Positions 29,331-37,100 are shown, counted from the stretch's first letter. The stretch: 50,145 nt of DNA from Bdellovibrionales bacterium (GCA_022450595.1 JAKUPT010000018.1:1-50145), one strand, 5' to 3'. Numbers and translations are program-made. The notes: generated by a model not told the origin, from the sequence alone.

Positions 29331-30227
29331 ATGAAAAAGAACGTATTGCTAATCAACTTGATGCTAATTCCAGTTTTACTAACATTTCAAAACTGCTCTC
29401 AAGATGTTCAGTTTACATCTACACCGGACGTGATTAAAAAAATTGGAGATGGGCAAGACATTCAAATCATTGACTCTGATAGTAAGCAGCCAGAAGAACT
29501 GCTAATCGTAGACAATGGTGCTCAAGACTCTATGCCTCCTGACGTTCCTAATGTTCAACCAGAGCTTCCTCCTGGTTATGAACCCGATGACAATCCAAAC
29601 ACACAAATCTTAGGCGATCAACTTTGTGGTGAGTACTACGAGCAGTACACGGCCAGTCTTAATTTGATTGATAATGGCTGTTTTGAACACACCGATGATA
29701 GAGTGGGTACTCATACTAAAAAAACTTTAAATCAGTTAGTGAACAGACAGTGGGATGTTTATGATAGCCTTCCCGGGTCAAAAGATCAGGACAGCTGGGT
29801 GGTTGAAGCTGGTAATGGAATAGAAATTCAAAGAGATACTGTTGTTAAGCCTCACAGTGGCAATCACTATGTTGAGCTAGACAGTCATGGTCGTAATTCA
29901 AACTCTAGGATGTCTCAAACAGTAGAAATTATGCAGCCAGGCAACTATAGATTGGCTTTTTACTACTTACCGAGAGTTTCTGGAAAGCAAGACAACTCCA
30001 TTGATGTGCTTATTAATGATGAAACCATATCAACAGTAACCGGCTCTTCTAAAGATATACAAGGGGACCGCAAGGCTCAATCCAGCTGGAAGTTAATTGT
30101 GATTGACTTAAAAGATGTACCAGTTGGTCCACTGAAAATCTCATTCAGCGCCGTGGCTGAGGGTGATAAAAAGTTAACTTATGGTGGTTTGCTGGATGAT
30201 ATTACTTTGGTTCCAGTTCTTCAGTAA
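29331..30227 (+). CDS. Putative lipoprotein with a C-terminal beta-sandwich domain
   Basis: 298 residues. The signal peptide (1-21) ends at LTFQNC with Cys22 as the probable lipidated residue; the -3 Phe and -1 Asn are unusual for a lipobox. Residues 40-95 are acidic and Pro/Asp/Gln-rich, as a flexible linker. Residues 110-295 resemble DUF642/galactose-binding-like sandwiches: LIDNGCFEHTDDR, VVEAGNGIEIQRD, GNHYVELDSHG, SQTVEIMQPGNYRLAFYY. Those domains bind carbohydrate in some proteins, but no ligand can be named here. GGTGGAGG lies just before the ATG. Its last 26 bases overlap the ATP-grasp gene tail to tail. Confidence 0.65.
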   Translation: MKKNVLLINLMLIPVLLTFQNCSQDVQFTSTPDVIKKIGDGQDIQIIDSDSKQPEELLIVDNGAQDSMPPDVPNVQPELPPGYEPDDNPNTQILGDQLCGEYYEQYTASLNLIDNGCFEHTDDRVGTHTKKTLNQLVNRQWDVYDSLPGSKDQDSWVVEAGNGIEIQRDTVVKPHSGNHYVELDSHGRNSNSRMSQTVEIMQPGNYRLAFYYLPRVSGKQDNSIDVLINDETISTVTGSSKDIQGDRKAQSSWKLIVIDLKDVPVGPLKISFSAVAEGDKKLTYGGLLDDITLVPVLQ

Positions 30228-31347
30228 TCAAATTAATTATAAAGTTTGTTTCGAGGCTCTTTATATCATTAAAAAGAGCCTCTTTATTTTTATTGGTAAG
30301 AAAAATATATCCTATGTCTTGTCCTGAGCCTTGCCTATGACTGACTTTATCTCCAGATGATTTTTTCAATTTAATAGAATGAAAAGAAGATAATTTTTTT
30401 ACCTCTTCTACTCCTTGAATGTTATCAACTTCACCGGCTCCGGGATGCAAAATAATGGCACTGGAGTAGGTTCTTGCTTGTTGTGGAATCGAGATGTTGT
30501 TTTCAGTAAAAAGTTTAAAATAGGCTTTCCATGGAGAGAAATTATAGCTTAATTGGATAAGGTTCATTAAATAGCCACCAGGTGGGCGAATGGCAAACTC
30601 TCCTAATGTAAGACTGTTATCAGATACAAAGAATTCAATATGTAAGAGAGCTGTATCTATATTGTAGCTATCAATTATTTTTAATAAAAAGGCGTCGATT
30701 TTAGTTTTAACTTCTTTTGAAAAATCATGAGGAAGAATATTGATTTTTAAATGTTTATAGTAATTAGTAAAGTTCACAAATATAATACTTTTGTTCTTCA
30801 CAAACACTTCCGCACTGAATTCCTTTCCCTCAATAAAAGACTCGGCAATTTTTTCAGGAGCTAAATGCTTAGAAACCTCTATTTTGTTATAACAAAAGTT
30901 TAAGCCTCTGCTGCCGCTTGAGTTTTGTTGTTTCAACACTAAGGGCAAACCTAAATGTTTTATGAGTTCAGAAGCGGTGGTGGATTCAGTGACTAGTTGG
31001 AACTGACTGATATTAATTTTCTTTTTAAGAGCCTGTTGCTTTAATTGTATTTTTTCATGGGAAAACAAACTTAATTCTTTATCATACCCAAGGCATTGGT
31101 ATTTATGTTTTATTTTAGAGGCCATTACAATTGATGATTCCGACAGGGGGAGGCATAGGTCAGGCGGCTCAATTAGGCTAAAGTCTAGCTCATCATTTGA
31201 AAAGTAATAGACATGAGAAACATTTAAGGACTTAGGGATCTTTGTATTTACATCCACGACTAACTGCACATTACCGAACATATCAAGGGCCTGTTTGATC
31301 GCCTCTTTTCTATAACCAACAAGTACAATGTTTAAGTCTTTTTTCAC
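30202..31347 (-). CDS. ATP-grasp domain protein, carboxylate-amine ligase-like
   Basis: 381 residues with an N-terminal alpha/beta domain (LNIVLVGYRKEAIKQAL) and an ATP-grasp fold. Visible signatures are LPLVLKQQNSSGSRGLNFC (about 130-150, the ATP loop), AESFIEGKEFSAEVFV (about 165-180) and LGEFAIRPPGGYLMN (about 260-275) with the acidic metal ligands. Relatives ligate a carboxylate to an amine. The product is unknown. The start is GTG, with AAGGA 6 bases upstream. No pathway partner is next to it. Confidence 0.75.
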   Translation of the reverse strand: MKKDLNIVLVGYRKEAIKQALDMFGNVQLVVDVNTKIPKSLNVSHVYYFSNDELDFSLIEPPDLCLPLSESSIVMASKIKHKYQCLGYDKELSLFSHEKIQLKQQALKKKINISQFQLVTESTTASELIKHLGLPLVLKQQNSSGSRGLNFCYNKIEVSKHLAPEKIAESFIEGKEFSAEVFVKNKSIIFVNFTNYYKHLKINILPHDFSKEVKTKIDAFLLKIIDSYNIDTALLHIEFFVSDNSLTLGEFAIRPPGGYLMNLIQLSYNFSPWKAYFKLFTENNISIPQQARTYSSAIILHPGAGEVDNIQGVEEVKKLSSFHSIKLKKSSGDKVSHRQGSGQDIGYIFLTNKNKEALFNDIKSLETNFIINLITEELEPK

Positions 31348-31551: not shown

Positions 31552-33873
31552 ATGAATAATAACTTAAAAAATGAAAATGGATTTAGTTTGACTGAGGCAT
31601 TGATCAGTTCAGCTTTATTAGGGGCTGTTTTTTTAAGTGTATTTTTAGGTGTTGAAAAAATCAATACTCACCAAAGAACCAGTACTCAACTTCAATCTAT
31701 AGAGTTAATCAAAAACAGCTTATATTCTATTTTAAACAATCCTGTGGCTTGGGAGAATACAGTCAACGATCCATTAAACTCTGTTTTTAGCTGTACAATA
31801 AATAGCTGTAAGGGTGTTTCAGGAACTATTAAAAGAGTGCGCACTTCAAATAACTCTATTTACTTTGAAGACACAGGTAATAATGGTTTTAGTGCCAATG
31901 GGAAGTCATGTGTTTCAACTAGGTCTAACCCGGATCCTAATTGTTTTATTTCAGCAAAATTGAAGGTGAGCTTTTTATGTGACGAGGACTGTAAATCACC
32001 TTTGGCAAAAGTTGAAGGTCTATTTTATACACTCAATGAAACCTCTGTGAATCTAGGAAATTCTTTTAACTTTCAACTCATAAAAGCTATGAATACAGAT
32101 CCTTGTGGGCTTGGATGTAAAACAGTTACTTTCGATCCAGCATTGGCGATTAAAAATGAAGCCTCTTTGGAGACAAGTGAACTTAAAATTATTATGGTCG
32201 TGGATAATTCATCAAGTATGAAAGCCGCACAAGAGTATTTAAACACCGGCCTTAAGTCATTGTTTGCCAAGCTTAAAAGCTTAAATATTAAATCTAAAAT
32301 TTATATTTATACAACAACCCAGCTTGGTGAAAGCGATATGTTTCCCGCAGCGACTCCGAACACCTATTACCGGTGGGAAGATAAGTATGGGGTTATAAAA
32401 GAAAGCACTGAGGAGCCTTATAAAGCAGCCATATTGGATTATGAATACACTTCTCGTCCTTTGCTTTTGCCTCCAGCCGGTGGAGATGAGCTAACCTTGA
32501 CAGAGGACATGTCACCTTCGGACTACGACGAAGTGATCTCGCAATTGGATAAAATTTTAACTTCAAGCGACGAAGGCATAGGTACAAATGGTAGTTCTGA
32601 TGAACAAGGACTTTGTACTGTGGCTAAAACTTTATTTGATAAGGGTCCTAATGCCATTTTTAATGCTGGCGACAAAACATTGTTTTTAATTGTAAGTGAT
32701 GAAAATGATATCAGTGAAGACGCCTGTTTTGCACAAACCACTGAATCTAGAGACTGTGATGATAAGTATGGTGGGATGTACTCTTTGTATGGTTGTCACC
32801 ATCAACCTGGCCCTCAAAGAGCAGAAACTTGTGATCATGTGGAGTACAAAATCTATGAAGATGATTCCACTCATTTCACTGCTAACCGTCAAATTCATTA
32901 TCAGTGCACTAAAACTGTTGTTAAAGACGGTGTCGAGGTGATTGATGATGATTATAAAGATCGTACTGGCAGAAAGTATGTTGGGCGATGCGCTGATGAG
33001 CCATACAGATGCATTGAAGCAGATATTACTCAAATTAAAGAAGTAAAAAATGATTGCAGTGGTGAAAATGATGCCATCACAAGTTGTAAAATTAGTTGTT
33101 GGGAGTACAACAGAAAACCCATGGTTTATTTAGATACCAATAAAGCAACCATGGCCTATGATCTAACAAAAACTTCATTCACTGACGGCTCAGGAACTAG
33201 TTACTCTAATTTATTTGAATATATGGAAACTAAGTATCCGGGAAGAACTTTTCTCAGAGACAAGTACTCAGATTATGGAGAAAAATGGAAGCCTTATTGT
33301 AAAACACAGCCTGAAAAAACTGTGAGTTATCAAGAGCTGAGTGGCTTAAATCCAGATGAAACCACTTTAAAAGAAACCATAAAAATGAGAGCCGATGAAT
33401 TGTTTGGCACTGATGGTTACTCGATGTCTTTAATTATTAATGATCCAACTTTAAATGCTCAAGCTGGATGTAGTTTACAAGGTGACCAGTCCTATGGAAC
33501 TGAATATAAAAACTTTGCTGACAATTTAGAAATCAAAGGAGCTGTCAGCTCTATTTGTTCTAAAGACTATTCCAACGCTTTAGAGAATGTTTCGCAATTT
33601 GCTAGAAAAGTCGCCAATGAGGCCAAGAAGACCATTGTTATGGAAGAAGGTGAGATGCTTCTAAAAATCACCACAAAAGACATCAATGGCAATGACATCA
33701 CATTATCTACGCCTGATCATTACACTGTAAATGGTTTAGTCATTACATTTAAAAACAGCTTTATAAGTGAAAGCACACATCCCGTAGATGTTCATATTGC
33801 TAAAGTACCACCAAATTTAAAAATTCAAAAACCATCCTGGATGAAAACAGCACAATCACCTCATGAGGATTAA
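31552..33873 (+). CDS. Type IV prepilin-like protein carrying a von Willebrand A domain
   Basis: 773 residues. Residues 1-10 form a short leader ending NENG, followed by the prepilin-peptidase signature FSLTEALISSALLG, so cleavage after Gly10 leaves Phe1 and the conserved Glu5 and an N-terminal hydrophobic helix (11-33). Residues 34-175 form a pilin-like module with C120, C131, C143 and C147 patterns shared with the next two genes. From about 211 a VWA domain begins: IIMVVDNSSSM gives the MIDAS D218-x-S220-x-S222, and IVSDEND (390-396) its acidic partner. The segment 400-510 is Cys-rich (about 10 Cys). A C-terminal beta region follows. A modular minor pilin or tip adhesin is inferred, as in Streptococcus sanguinis PilB. 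It is first of three prepilin genes. Confidence 0.85.
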   Translation: MNNNLKNENGFSLTEALISSALLGAVFLSVFLGVEKINTHQRTSTQLQSIELIKNSLYSILNNPVAWENTVNDPLNSVFSCTINSCKGVSGTIKRVRTSNNSIYFEDTGNNGFSANGKSCVSTRSNPDPNCFISAKLKVSFLCDEDCKSPLAKVEGLFYTLNETSVNLGNSFNFQLIKAMNTDPCGLGCKTVTFDPALAIKNEASLETSELKIIMVVDNSSSMKAAQEYLNTGLKSLFAKLKSLNIKSKIYIYTTTQLGESDMFPAATPNTYYRWEDKYGVIKESTEEPYKAAILDYEYTSRPLLLPPAGGDELTLTEDMSPSDYDEVISQLDKILTSSDEGIGTNGSSDEQGLCTVAKTLFDKGPNAIFNAGDKTLFLIVSDENDISEDACFAQTTESRDCDDKYGGMYSLYGCHHQPGPQRAETCDHVEYKIYEDDSTHFTANRQIHYQCTKTVVKDGVEVIDDDYKDRTGRKYVGRCADEPYRCIEADITQIKEVKNDCSGENDAITSCKISCWEYNRKPMVYLDTNKATMAYDLTKTSFTDGSGTSYSNLFEYMETKYPGRTFLRDKYSDYGEKWKPYCKTQPEKTVSYQELSGLNPDETTLKETIKMRADELFGTDGYSMSLIINDPTLNAQAGCSLQGDQSYGTEYKNFADNLEIKGAVSSICSKDYSNALENVSQFARKVANEAKKTIVMEEGEMLLKITTKDINGNDITLSTPDHYTVNGLVITFKNSFISESTHPVDVHIAKVPPNLKIQKPSWMKTAQSPHED

Positions 33874-33874
33874 A

Positions 33875-34468
33875 ATGAAAAGATTAAACAACAAAGGCTT
33901 CAGTTTATTACAAGTGTTAACAGCAACGACGGTTTTGGGAATTGTATCTGCCACATTAATGGCCTCTATTTTTGAAAAAGCTCAGTTTAAAGCCATGAGT
34001 AAAACTAAAACAGGAATCGCTGCTGCTCGGTCGAATTTACAAAACGTAATGATGCATAATGTGTCTTGGTACTATACAATTTATGACCCCGTGAACGAAG
34101 CTCAAAACCCAGAAATTGCCTGTGTTAGAGGAACAGCTGCGGCCTTTAATGTTAATTGCCATAATGCCACAGGCACTTTAAGAGTTTTAGATGCTTCACA
34201 AAATGTATTTTATAACACATTTTCTGCCACACAAGGCTTTGATAAAGATGGGCTTATTTGTAACAACTTTGATGCTGGAAATGGAAACTTTAACTGTCCA
34301 CTCAGAGCCATTGTGACTTGGTCGGCCAACTGTACATCTGACCCTTGTTACAATCCTAGCGATATTATTGTTGAAGTGAAATTTGAGTATAAAACTTCAG
34401 ACTCAGATCGAAAGATTGCTTTTAACCCGGCTAATTATAACTTTGCCTTTTCCAGTTCGACACCATAG
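33875..34468 (+). CDS. Minor prepilin-like protein
   Basis: 197 residues with a short basic leader (MKRLNNKG) and the class III signal KG-FSLLQVLTATTVLG, so type IV prepilin peptidase should process it. Position 5 of the mature protein is Gln, not the usual Glu. The globular part contains ICNNFDAGNGNFNCPLRA and CTSDPCYNPSD, and ends near FNPANYNFAF, features shared with the next gene and, in the Cys pattern, with the pilin module of the previous one. ATG 33875 has GAGG 6 bases upstream; an in-frame ATG at 33863 lies inside the preceding gene with no such site. It is transcribed with its neighbours. Confidence 0.85.
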   Translation: MKRLNNKGFSLLQVLTATTVLGIVSATLMASIFEKAQFKAMSKTKTGIAAARSNLQNVMMHNVSWYYTIYDPVNEAQNPEIACVRGTAAAFNVNCHNATGTLRVLDASQNVFYNTFSATQGFDKDGLICNNFDAGNGNFNCPLRAIVTWSANCTSDPCYNPSDIIVEVKFEYKTSDSDRKIAFNPANYNFAFSSSTP

Positions 34469-34482
34469 AGGAGTATCCAACA

Positions 34483-35085
34483 ATGAAAGCTTTGAACAAC
34501 AACTATGGATTTAATCTTGTACAGCTTTTAATCGCTACAAGTGTTTTCACTATTGTCTCTTTAGGGGTTATGAACCTCATTCTTTATTACACTAAGATGG
34601 AGCAGCAACAGCGATTACTTTCAGGGATTATTTCTGCCAGATACACAATAATAAGTTATTTACAGCACGAAAGAGGCTGGGCCTTTACCATGACGGCTCC
34701 AGAAAATAATGAACCAGTAAGTGCAGACTGCTTGACGAGTGACACTTCGATCACTGGGACTGGATCTAACTTTGATTGCTTTGGTGTGGCTGATGTTGAA
34801 CTTGTTGTCTATAGCCCAAGTGGTGATGCTTATTACGACCCAGACAATGCAAGCCTTGGCTTTAATAGAGATGGGGCTATCTGTGACACCTATGACTCGA
34901 CAGCTGGTTCTGGAGATTTTAACTGCCCTTTTCGAGCCGAAGTGTATTGGCGTACACTGTGTACGGCATCACCATGTTATTATCCGGGTATTGAGGTGGA
35001 AGTTCGTTTTGAAATGAATCAATCCGACGGAGAAAAGCGTCTGGCTTTTAACCCGGAAAACTATAATTTTGTGTTTCAGAAATAA
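34483..35085 (+). CDS. Minor prepilin-like protein, paralogue of the preceding one
   Basis: 200 residues. The leader MKALNNNYG precedes FNLVQLLIATSVF; position 5 of the mature protein is Gln. The globular region reads ICDTYDSTAGSGDFNCPFRA and CTASPCYYPG, then LAFNPENYNFVF, clearly homologous to the previous gene over its whole length, so the pair arose by tandem duplication. GAGGAG lies 9 bases before the ATG and the gene follows by 14 bases. It ends 22 bases from the convergent M48 peptidase gene. No pilus assembly gene is next to the cluster. Confidence 0.85.
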   Translation: MKALNNNYGFNLVQLLIATSVFTIVSLGVMNLILYYTKMEQQQRLLSGIISARYTIISYLQHERGWAFTMTAPENNEPVSADCLTSDTSITGTGSNFDCFGVADVELVVYSPSGDAYYDPDNASLGFNRDGAICDTYDSTAGSGDFNCPFRAEVYWRTLCTASPCYYPGIEVEVRFEMNQSDGEKRLAFNPENYNFVFQK

Positions 35086-35107: not shown

Positions 35108-36934
35108 TTAATTGTTAGCCCCGAATATGTGTCCAATACAGCTCATCTGACTCTGAGAAAAGCTATGCTTATAGTAATTTAAATAATTACTATGTTCGAC
35201 ACTTTGGCTTTGAACTTTTTCAATATATTTATCAAGTAGTGGCTTATAGGTAATATGAATGGTGTTAAATTCCTCATAATAACTTTTAGCAAGACGATTA
35301 GTTTTATTATATGCGGAAAGTTTTTCGCGAAAGGCATCAGCTCTTTTTTTGATTGAATTTTGGCGACTTTCTGGGGTGGGGTGTGTGCTTTTTAATTTAT
35401 CTAAGAAGCTTTGATTGAGACCAAGTTTTTTATGAAAGTCTTCAAAACTCTTCCAGCCATCTGCCATAGCCTGATTTGTAGCTCCTAAGGAATAAGCCAC
35501 TTCATGACCAAGTTCATCAGCCTCATGCTCATTAGATCTTGAATGGTACATTAAACCAGCTATGGGAATTTGCATAAACATATCTATGCCGTAACCAGAG
35601 TAAGCCGCTGATGTTAAAGAATTAAAATACCAATTATCGATTATAGGTATTTTGTTAAGGGGTTTTGAGCCACCTTGAAAGGCCCAAATATTTTGTACCA
35701 ACGCAATGGCATTATAAGCCAAGCCAAAGCCTGTATAAATGGGTAATCTTTTTGTTGTGTGCCTAGCTACAACATGGCCTATTTCATGTCCAACAACTAA
35801 TAGCAAACTGTCTAAGTTATTTAGCATTCCAAGAAGGCCTGCAGTTACAAAAATTCTACCTCCAGGGTAAGCGTAAGCATTTGGCGCCGCTGATGCCGAA
35901 ACATAACATTTAGGCCAAACAGGCTCAGGAACACCATAGTTAGTGGCAAGATAGTCGCAAAGATCTTGTATAAAAGTTTGAACAGGTTGATGGTTTACAA
36001 TCTTAGTAAGTTCTGGGTTTATTTTTTCTCTCCATTCAATTTCTGGTTGAAGGTTGTCCTTCAGTGACTGCATAGTTTTGAAGAGCTTTTTTGATTTGTC
36101 TGTATCTTGAAGACGTAATGGAATCTGTTTAGGAGTTGCCTGGATATTATGCTCATAATTTAACAAATAATCATAGTTAAAAAAAGGCGAGTTGTTTGTA
36201 AACGTTGAGTCTGCTGATAATGTGAGTTTTTGAGAATTAACAAAACTGTATAAATTTATAAGGGCAAAGCCTGTTTCATAAACCTCGGGGCCCTGATTTA
36301 AGAGACTTACTATATTTTCAATATTTTGTGGTATGGCAGAAAAGGACTCTCCAAGGTTTATACCGGATGTGCTTCTCAGGTCGTCGGCACTCCATCCAAT
36401 ATTTAAACTCATTCCCCATGTTGAAACGTCGCCTATATATAGAGTCTTAGGTCTTAAAAAATCGAAACAAAGACCAATGCATTGAGATTTCATTGTCGCA
36501 ATAGAGGTTACTTTTTTTGCGTATTTAGAAGAGATCACATAATAATTTCCATTAAATGCAATTGGATGTAACTGGTAGGATTGGCCAGTAATTGGCTCTA
36601 CAAAATCTTTAAAATAATTTATCACCTGATGTCTCGTGGCCGTTTTAGAGCTGAGGCCAAAGACTTTAGGATTCACTTTAAATCCATAATGTTTTTGTCC
36701 TTTAATTAAAGGAGTGAGCTGTAAATGTAATTTAGCGTCTTGAGAGCTTGCTGATTTATTTGGATAAAAGCCATAGTGATCGATAAGATGTGGGGGAAGT
36801 GTATTGCTCCAATCAAAATCCGACAATGGGTTTGCCTGAACGGAACTTGCCAAAAGACTTAAAAGACTTAGCCTCAAAAAGAACATACAGACGGTTTTGA
36901 ACAATTGAGTCTTGTCAAATATCATAATCTTCAT
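35108..36934 (-). CDS. Exported M48-family zinc metallopeptidase
   Basis: 608 residues. A signal peptide or anchor occupies about 1-36 (CMFFLRLSLLSLLASSVQA). A long N-terminal region of about 330 residues has no clear match. The M48 domain follows, with the zinc site HEIGH (383-387) and the third ligand in NEHEADELG. A STHPTPESR motif near the C-terminus is typical of BepA/Oma1-like proteins, which act in outer-membrane protein quality control in the periplasm. ATG 36934 was chosen with GGGGA 8 bases upstream; a TTG 15 bases earlier has no site. The long extension distinguishes it from the compact members. Confidence 0.8.
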   Translation of the reverse strand: MKIMIFDKTQLFKTVCMFFLRLSLLSLLASSVQANPLSDFDWSNTLPPHLIDHYGFYPNKSASSQDAKLHLQLTPLIKGQKHYGFKVNPKVFGLSSKTATRHQVINYFKDFVEPITGQSYQLHPIAFNGNYYVISSKYAKKVTSIATMKSQCIGLCFDFLRPKTLYIGDVSTWGMSLNIGWSADDLRSTSGINLGESFSAIPQNIENIVSLLNQGPEVYETGFALINLYSFVNSQKLTLSADSTFTNNSPFFNYDYLLNYEHNIQATPKQIPLRLQDTDKSKKLFKTMQSLKDNLQPEIEWREKINPELTKIVNHQPVQTFIQDLCDYLATNYGVPEPVWPKCYVSASAAPNAYAYPGGRIFVTAGLLGMLNNLDSLLLVVGHEIGHVVARHTTKRLPIYTGFGLAYNAIALVQNIWAFQGGSKPLNKIPIIDNWYFNSLTSAAYSGYGIDMFMQIPIAGLMYHSRSNEHEADELGHEVAYSLGATNQAMADGWKSFEDFHKKLGLNQSFLDKLKSTHPTPESRQNSIKKRADAFREKLSAYNKTNRLAKSYYEEFNTIHITYKPLLDKYIEKVQSQSVEHSNYLNYYKHSFSQSQMSCIGHIFGANN

Positions 36935-37100
36935 CAATTTTTTCCCCAAAGAAGCTAAACTCTCTTGAGTTTTAACACTGCTTACTTTGTGGGCAAAATT
37001 GTTTAAAGTTTGTTCACCAATTTACAGTAAAATTTAGGATAAAATTCAATAGATTAACTTTGGCTATTATCAAGGGTTGGGAAATAGTTGAAAGAAAAGT

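Follow-up and report, generated by a model that had tools for sequence, protein, structure and literature searches.

A three-gene prepilin operon of a Bdellovibrionales bacterium that probably specifies a minor-pilin tip complex with a MIDAS adhesin

What would three adjacent prepilins do if the first of them carried a von Willebrand A (VWA) domain? This question is raised by a 50,145-nucleotide stretch of DNA from a Bdellovibrionales bacterium (GCA_022450595.1 JAKUPT010000018.1:1-50145), referred to here as the window, in which positions 31552-35085 of the + strand hold three co-directional, tightly packed prepilin open reading frames (ORFs). From the analysis described below we consider it likely that this operon encodes a minor-pilin tip complex that presents a metal-ion-dependent adhesion site (MIDAS) adhesin, most likely on a type IVa pilus (T4aP), for contact with a cell or surface. 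The genes, and the N-terminal parts of the first protein, are listed here; a slash marks the prepilin cleavage site and +5 refers to the mature protein.

31552..33873, + strand: gene 1, the VWA-prepilin (773 residues), a six-Cys pilin module followed by a VWA domain with a large Cys-rich insert and a beta tail
31552..31581, + strand: class III leader of gene 1, residues 1-10, cleavage after Gly10 (ENG/FSLTEAL), Glu at +5
31582..32121, + strand: type IV pilin module of gene 1, residues 11-190, with Cys 81, 86, 120, 131, 143 and 147
33875..34468, + strand: gene 2, the second prepilin, a bare six-Cys pilin (NKG/FSLLQVL, Gln at +5); the ORF is also open from ATG 33863
34483..35085, + strand: gene 3, the third prepilin, a bare six-Cys pilin of 200 residues (NYG/FNLVQLL, Gln at +5)

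An earlier note on this DNA had described three consecutive genes with prepilin-peptidase sites that share the spacing of their Cys residues, and both observations were borne out. Each predicted protein begins with a short class III leader ending in Gly, followed by about 20 hydrophobic residues. Gene 1 matched the Pfam N_methyl model at 22.1 bits in the genome scan, which is above the cut-off; by hmmscan the scores were 16.6 bits for gene 1 and 13.4 bits for gene 2, with no match for gene 3. A pilin profile of 30 relatives, which includes the three window prepilins themselves, matched genes 2 and 3 at E~1e-50 and gene 1 at 7e-48, covering the whole pilin module. Six Cys residues are common to the three pilins and are invariant across the 30 relatives. 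Among solved structures, the profile also aligned with type IV pilins along the alpha-1 helix (the first ~60 positions), these being T4a and T4b pilins and geopilins. None of the GspI, GspJ or GspK minor pseudopilin models scored over its cut-off, weak N-terminal matches being the only ones obtained (GspG, 15.2 bits; GspI, 13.4 bits), and no Tad family (TadE, TadF or TadG) appeared among the Pfam or NCBIfam matches at E<=1.

The residue at +5 distinguishes the three subunits. Gene 1 has Glu at this position, and genes 2 and 3, which are tandem sisters with 39% identity, have Gln, as expected for apex-type subunits. In 27 multi-gene clusters with 72 pilins in all, the +5 residue is not acidic in 28 pilins, nor in 12 of the 14 bare ones. 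In all mixed clusters (19 of 19), the longest extension was on a member with an acidic +5 residue; within-cluster shuffling (n=5000) gave a mean of 11.2 such clusters, and none of the shuffles reached 19. The window trio fits this rule, with Glu5 on the VWA subunit and Gln5 on both bare subunits. A further pattern, in which Glu5-lacking subunits would be dealt out one per cluster, was not shown (p=0.05-0.3). In Streptococcus sanguinis, the bare pilin PilA lacks Glu5 and is added first, and PilB and PilC carry Glu5 and adhesive modules (PMC8179133, PMC9934059); as a general rule, the subunit that caps a tip complex lacks Glu5 (PMC10191384). By analogy, the match between the +5 pattern and the PilABC tip is the strongest argument that the trio may form a tip complex, and the pattern would extend the S. 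sanguinis Glu5 rule, bare subunits without and module-bearers with Glu5, to an unrelated diderm pilin family.

The module that the first subunit would present is an integrin-like VWA domain split by an insert, with the following parts.

32167..33633, + strand: VWA domain, residues ~206-694, in two halves flanking the insert
32203..32217, + strand: MIDAS DxSxS motif, D218-N-S-S-S222, with D218 and S220 invariant in 24 homologues
32602..32604, + strand: Glu351, invariant in 24/24 homologues, in the place of the usual MIDAS Thr; its assignment to loop 2 is tentative
32692..32709, + strand: VSDEND, the MIDAS loop-3 acidic motif (SDEND, residues 382-386; D386 invariant)
32737..33351, + strand: Cys-rich insert inside the VWA domain, residues ~396-600 (~205 residues, 10 Cys)
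33634..33870, + strand: small C-terminal beta region, residues 695-773, shared with lipoprotein homologues

Although the Pfam VWA model had no match in the window protein alone, VWA_2 was matched by 10 of the 24 homologues and VWA by 3. An alignment-free AlphaFold2 (AF2) prediction of the full-length first protein was unusable (predicted local distance difference test score, pLDDT, 36), and the model of the VWA module made with two homologues, at pLDDT 32.6, was used solely through fold comparison. We attribute this low confidence to alignments that held at most two outside homologues. Despite it, the secondary structure of the module model follows the VWA order. With Foldseek, the vWFA domain of an Aeromonas adhesin matched best, and most of the top matches were VWA-type adhesins or receptors. 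By VIA-align, the best 50 rows listed were all VWA-type folds and included S. sanguinis PilB among the top matches (7b7p, Z 9.0 over 162 residues); the alignments run from about residue 17 of the model to residue 505, covering both flanks of the Cys-rich insert. In these rows the low-confidence module model aligned only with VWA-fold chains. In our view the predicted Rossmann-like VWA fold has moderate to good support, short of proof. The earlier note had described a complete MIDAS-type VWA domain and a Cys-rich stretch. The latter is present, and the VWA assignment stands on the homologue matches and fold comparison, but "complete" slightly overstates the case, as the site appears not to be fully canonical: DxSxS and SDEND are kept, the loop-2 Thr was not found and the invariant Glu351 lies in that region. 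Metal binding is a prediction.

The VWA domain is grafted C-terminal to the pilin module, as in proteins of the S. sanguinis PilB kind. Both systems combine a Glu5 pilin bearing a grafted VWA/MIDAS module with a bare Glu5-less partner in a set of three minor pilins (PMC8179133, PMC9934059). However, no sequence relation between them was found, and the window proteins differ in their six-Cys pilin heads, the 205-residue Cys-rich VWA insert, the diderm host and the presence of two bare Gln5 subunits, PilABC having one Glu5-less PilA plus a lectin pilin. PilY1/PilC of T4aP likewise places a VWA/MIDAS module at the pilus tip with minor pilins. In contrast to the window protein, PilY1 does not belong to the pilins, and it carries at its C terminus a beta-propeller (PF05567) that was not found in the window proteins.

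Another close parallel is Caulobacter CpaL (TadG), a minor pilin of the Tad pilus with an insert-split VWA domain, predicted to form a tip trimer with the two small minor pilins CpaJ and CpaK (PMC12607857). Loss of CpaL stimulates surface sensing (PMC12607857), and since the window VWA domain is likewise split by a large insert, here Cys-rich, the VWA-prepilin might be chiefly a mechanosensor that controls pilus dynamics or a contact signal, and only secondarily an adhesin, a role already suggested for CpaL and PilY1. We consider this explanation unlikely. No signalling genes adjoin the operon, sister clusters put quite different adhesion domains at the same position, and Bd0875, the nearest VWA relative whose function has been studied, serves as an adhesin. 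The two proteins also differ in that CpaL belongs to a Tad/Flp system, has two beta-barrels inserted between VWA segments 148-203 and 384-626 and has the canonical MIDAS Thr; the window insert is Cys-rich and follows the SDEND loop.

Bd0875 bears on adhesion through homology. This Bdellovibrio protein sits at the predator-prey junction, and its MIDAS aspartate Asp66 is needed for normal prey invasion; deletion of three other Bdellovibrio MIDAS proteins had no visible effect (PMC11003981). The window protein matched NF052240 (MIDASAdhsBdello, the Bd0875 equivalog) at 27.4 bits (E 1.8e-6) against a curated cut-off of 700 bits. To judge from these matches, the window VWA module is homologous to Bd0875-type lipoprotein MIDAS adhesins, with the DxSxS aspartate kept, yet lies outside the equivalog. 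Bd0875 is a 378-residue lipoprotein, and in relatives the VWA module with its beta tail is usually a stand-alone lipobox protein rather than a pilin; the window protein lacks a lipobox anchor and has a prepilin leader instead. Among 24 members of the VWA-module family, nine match NF052240 and six match the gliding protein CglD.

VWA-pilins occur in three other genomes (G051, G093 and G023), and in the tree the five VWA modules that are carried on pilins lie together on one side of a weak branch (73/84), so that independent origins are not needed. The window's own genome has two further VWA-prepilins, both unlinked to the operon: an intact copy on contig C76 (49% identity over its length) and a copy on C73 (L048:8658-10963) with a frameshift in the N-terminal half of the VWA domain, which reflects either real decay or an assembly error. 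Given these paralogues, the operon could be a decaying remnant and an unlinked copy the functional one, but the window copy is intact, with the family MIDAS residues, the six pilin Cys and both partner genes, which makes this highly improbable. Identity between the VWA-prepilin copies is 73-74% in the transmembrane segment, 57-65% in the C-terminal half of the VWA domain, 54-58% in the pilin head, 34-38% in the Cys-rich insert (the most diverged large part) and 22-28% in the linker. Such a pattern would follow from conserved docking and a variable exposed face. Speculatively, the solitary paralogues might share the base that genes 2 and 3 would provide. A contig scan returned two loci only, and two scans of viral contigs returned no loci. 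Two more VWA proteins, on C113 of the same genome (L114:232-2202 and L115:616-2052), have lipoprotein-like N-termini and are not close to the window module; when that module was set against the VWA proteins of its own genome by profile-profile comparison, the alignment was confined to 32 columns around DxSxS (probability 94%).

The pilin heads belong to a larger family. At E<=1e-4 the six-Cys profile matched 124 of the 194 relatives; many of the weak matches cover the generic N-terminus alone, and 41 of the 194 had a match below 1e-20. At least two six-Cys pilins are held by 27 of the 33 loci examined, usually as two or three neighbouring genes, with total lengths ranging from 180 to 1099 residues. 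Their C-terminal modules differ: besides VWA, Pfam matches were obtained to TSP1 at two loci (E 5e-17 and 3e-12), RCC1 propellers at two loci (1e-38 and 3e-36), Calx-beta (1e-34), bacterial Ig/cadherin-like domains (1e-8) and, weakly, fibrinogen-C (5e-4); many extensions have no Pfam name. The TSP1-bearing pilins are L094:2941-4722 (genome G053), where at least three related pilin genes and possible fragments of others are present, and L098:5503-7125 (G090). In G091, which has no recognisable PilY1, an RCC1-type beta-propeller is carried directly on six-Cys pilins (L095:4619-6535 and L096:5218-7155). No prior description of this family was found in the literature searched, which does not prove that there is none, and it is apparently undescribed so far across this group. 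Modular VWA pilins (PilB, CpaL) and changeable tips (Kil) were already known; what appears to be new is the six-Cys family and the variety of its modules, the finding that a pilin shares its MIDAS adhesin module with lipoproteins, and the occurrence of the +5 rule in an unrelated lineage.

Which machine would assemble the trio? The genome encodes PilQ on C140, PilM and PilD on C22, and PilB-, PilT- and Tad-type ATPases, the Pil genes lying off the window contig; matches to TIGR02519 (MshL) were used solely to list secretins. Near-complete genomes with the six-Cys family all have parts of T4aP, of the type II secretion system (T2SS) and of Tad systems, and PilM and PilQ are present in genomes with the family that lack recognisable PilY1. 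In genome G110, neither PilM nor PilQ was found and two PilB/GspE-type ATPases are present; a gap in this 94% complete assembly is likelier than a true lack of T4aP, given that the two ATPases are kept. Because the leaders are of the N-methyl-Phe type, PilY1 is not recognisable and the T2SS has its own pseudopilins, we lean towards T4aP as the assembling machine, at somewhat better than even chances, regard the T2SS and Tad machines as equally improbable and leave the small remainder unassigned.

One alternative holds that the trio forms an accessory or alternative T2SS pseudopilus tip, in which the VWA domain captures or delivers a secreted substrate without any surface binding. Its leader type is common to T4aP and T2SS, a T2SS operon lies on C129, and GspL/GspD-like T2SS-type genes occur in all near-complete genomes with the family. 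However, that operon has its own pseudopilins of GspG/H/I/J/K size, and large adhesion modules such as VWA, TSP1 and RCC1 are ill-suited to a periplasmic filament; we give this explanation a low probability.

The trio could instead form the tip of a Tad/Kil-like pilus for contact-dependent prey killing. Myxococcus Kil Tips (KilLMN) are also three-gene minor-pilin sets with one large variable module and several paralogous sets per genome in a predator, and other predators in which Kil-like systems occur are reported to have structural analogues (PMC12075869). In the window's own genome, the gene for a Tad-type ATPase shares a contig with one for a small prepilin peptidase. Nevertheless, Kil subunits are TadE/F/G homologues, reported to be undetectable by sequence outside myxobacteria, whereas the window leaders are of the N-methyl-Phe type (G/F...E5) and the pilin profile matches T4a and T4b pilins and geopilins. 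Several six-Cys sets consist of locally duplicated tandem genes and not of fixed L/M/N orthologues, and no Tad genes flank the clusters examined. The probability of this alternative is similarly low.

Returning to a minor-pilin tip on T4aP as the preferred reading, we propose the following course of events. PilD, the prepilin peptidase encoded elsewhere in the genome, would cut all three prepilins, and a type IV filament machine, most likely a type IVa pilus, would assemble them. The apex base would consist of the two bare pilins without Glu5 together with the pilin module of the gene 1 product, and from it the Glu5-bearing subunit would project its VWA/MIDAS module with the large disulphide-rich insert. 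The metal-dependent MIDAS could then bind a ligand, whether on a surface or on another cell, and the pilus could pull on what is bound. Pili are reportedly required for predation by Bdellovibrio bacteriovorus, to go by the title of a study in J. Bacteriol. (2007;189:4850), and the trio may serve in prey attachment. A coherent, searchable family of tip-type pilin sets with visible adhesion modules would offer concrete candidates for the question of what predator pilus tips bind. A broader and more tentative idea, which we consider less likely than not, is that interchangeable pilus-tip cassettes occur throughout the Bdellovibrionota, each a six-Cys minor-pilin base with lineage-specific adhesion modules that replaces PilY1 on the type IVa pilus and decides what, including which prey, the cell grips.

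The initial proposal is supported in part: among the readings, a tip or minor-pilin adhesion complex served by machinery encoded elsewhere has the best support, from the PilQ, PilM, PilD, PilB and PilT-type genes on other contigs, the VWA fold and the Glu5/bare pattern. Absent from the earlier note are the two unlinked paralogues, the homology of the VWA module to Bd0875-family lipoproteins and the six-Cys pilin family with its alternative modules. The expected co-occurrence with pilus machinery holds for T4aP parts, but T2SS and Tad parts are present in all genomes with the family as well, so co-occurrence cannot choose the machine. Other points also weigh against a T4aP tip complex. No machinery genes lie beside the pilin clusters examined. 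PilY1 was not recognisable in 39/39 genomes with the family, which counts in favour of T4aP, but that search had no positive control among the named genomes. The VWA model has a pLDDT of 32.6 and a best Foldseek E-value of 7e-3, the C76 and C73 paralogues have no adjoining partner pilins, and the three-protein complex could not be modelled. Finally, the clusters behind the +5 rule were found by family match and are not all phylogenetically independent, some being close relatives.

Within the operon, the intergenic gaps are ~1 nucleotide (genes 1-2) and ~14 nucleotides (genes 2-3), and GAGG-type ribosome sites lie upstream of genes 2 and 3. Gene 2 would encode 201 residues from ATG 33863 or 197 from ATG 33875, 12 nucleotides downstream; because its ribosome site (33865-33869) fits the latter better, translation probably starts at ATG 33875, which leaves a leader of 8 residues. 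Scans for promoters and terminators were not decisive, and no PHROGs (phage) family was matched. Two genes flank the trio.

30202-31347, - strand: ATP-grasp gene, upstream of the trio, resembling L-amino-acid ligases
35108-36949, - strand: M48 peptidase gene, downstream and convergent with the prepilin operon, 22 nucleotides apart

Since both lie on the opposite strand, the transcription unit probably consists of the three prepilin genes alone. The M48 peptidase has partial similarity to BepA. The 3′ end of the ATP-grasp gene overlaps by 26 nucleotides a lipoprotein gene near the operon (29331-30227, + strand) with an FQNC lipobox and a MAM/choice-of-anchor C domain. Enrichment of lipoproteins with QNC-type lipoboxes beside pilin clusters was considered and rejected (6/120 versus 2/154, p=0.14). 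The lipobox of this lipoprotein recurs in lipoproteins beside pilin pairs at three loci (L091, L092 and L107).

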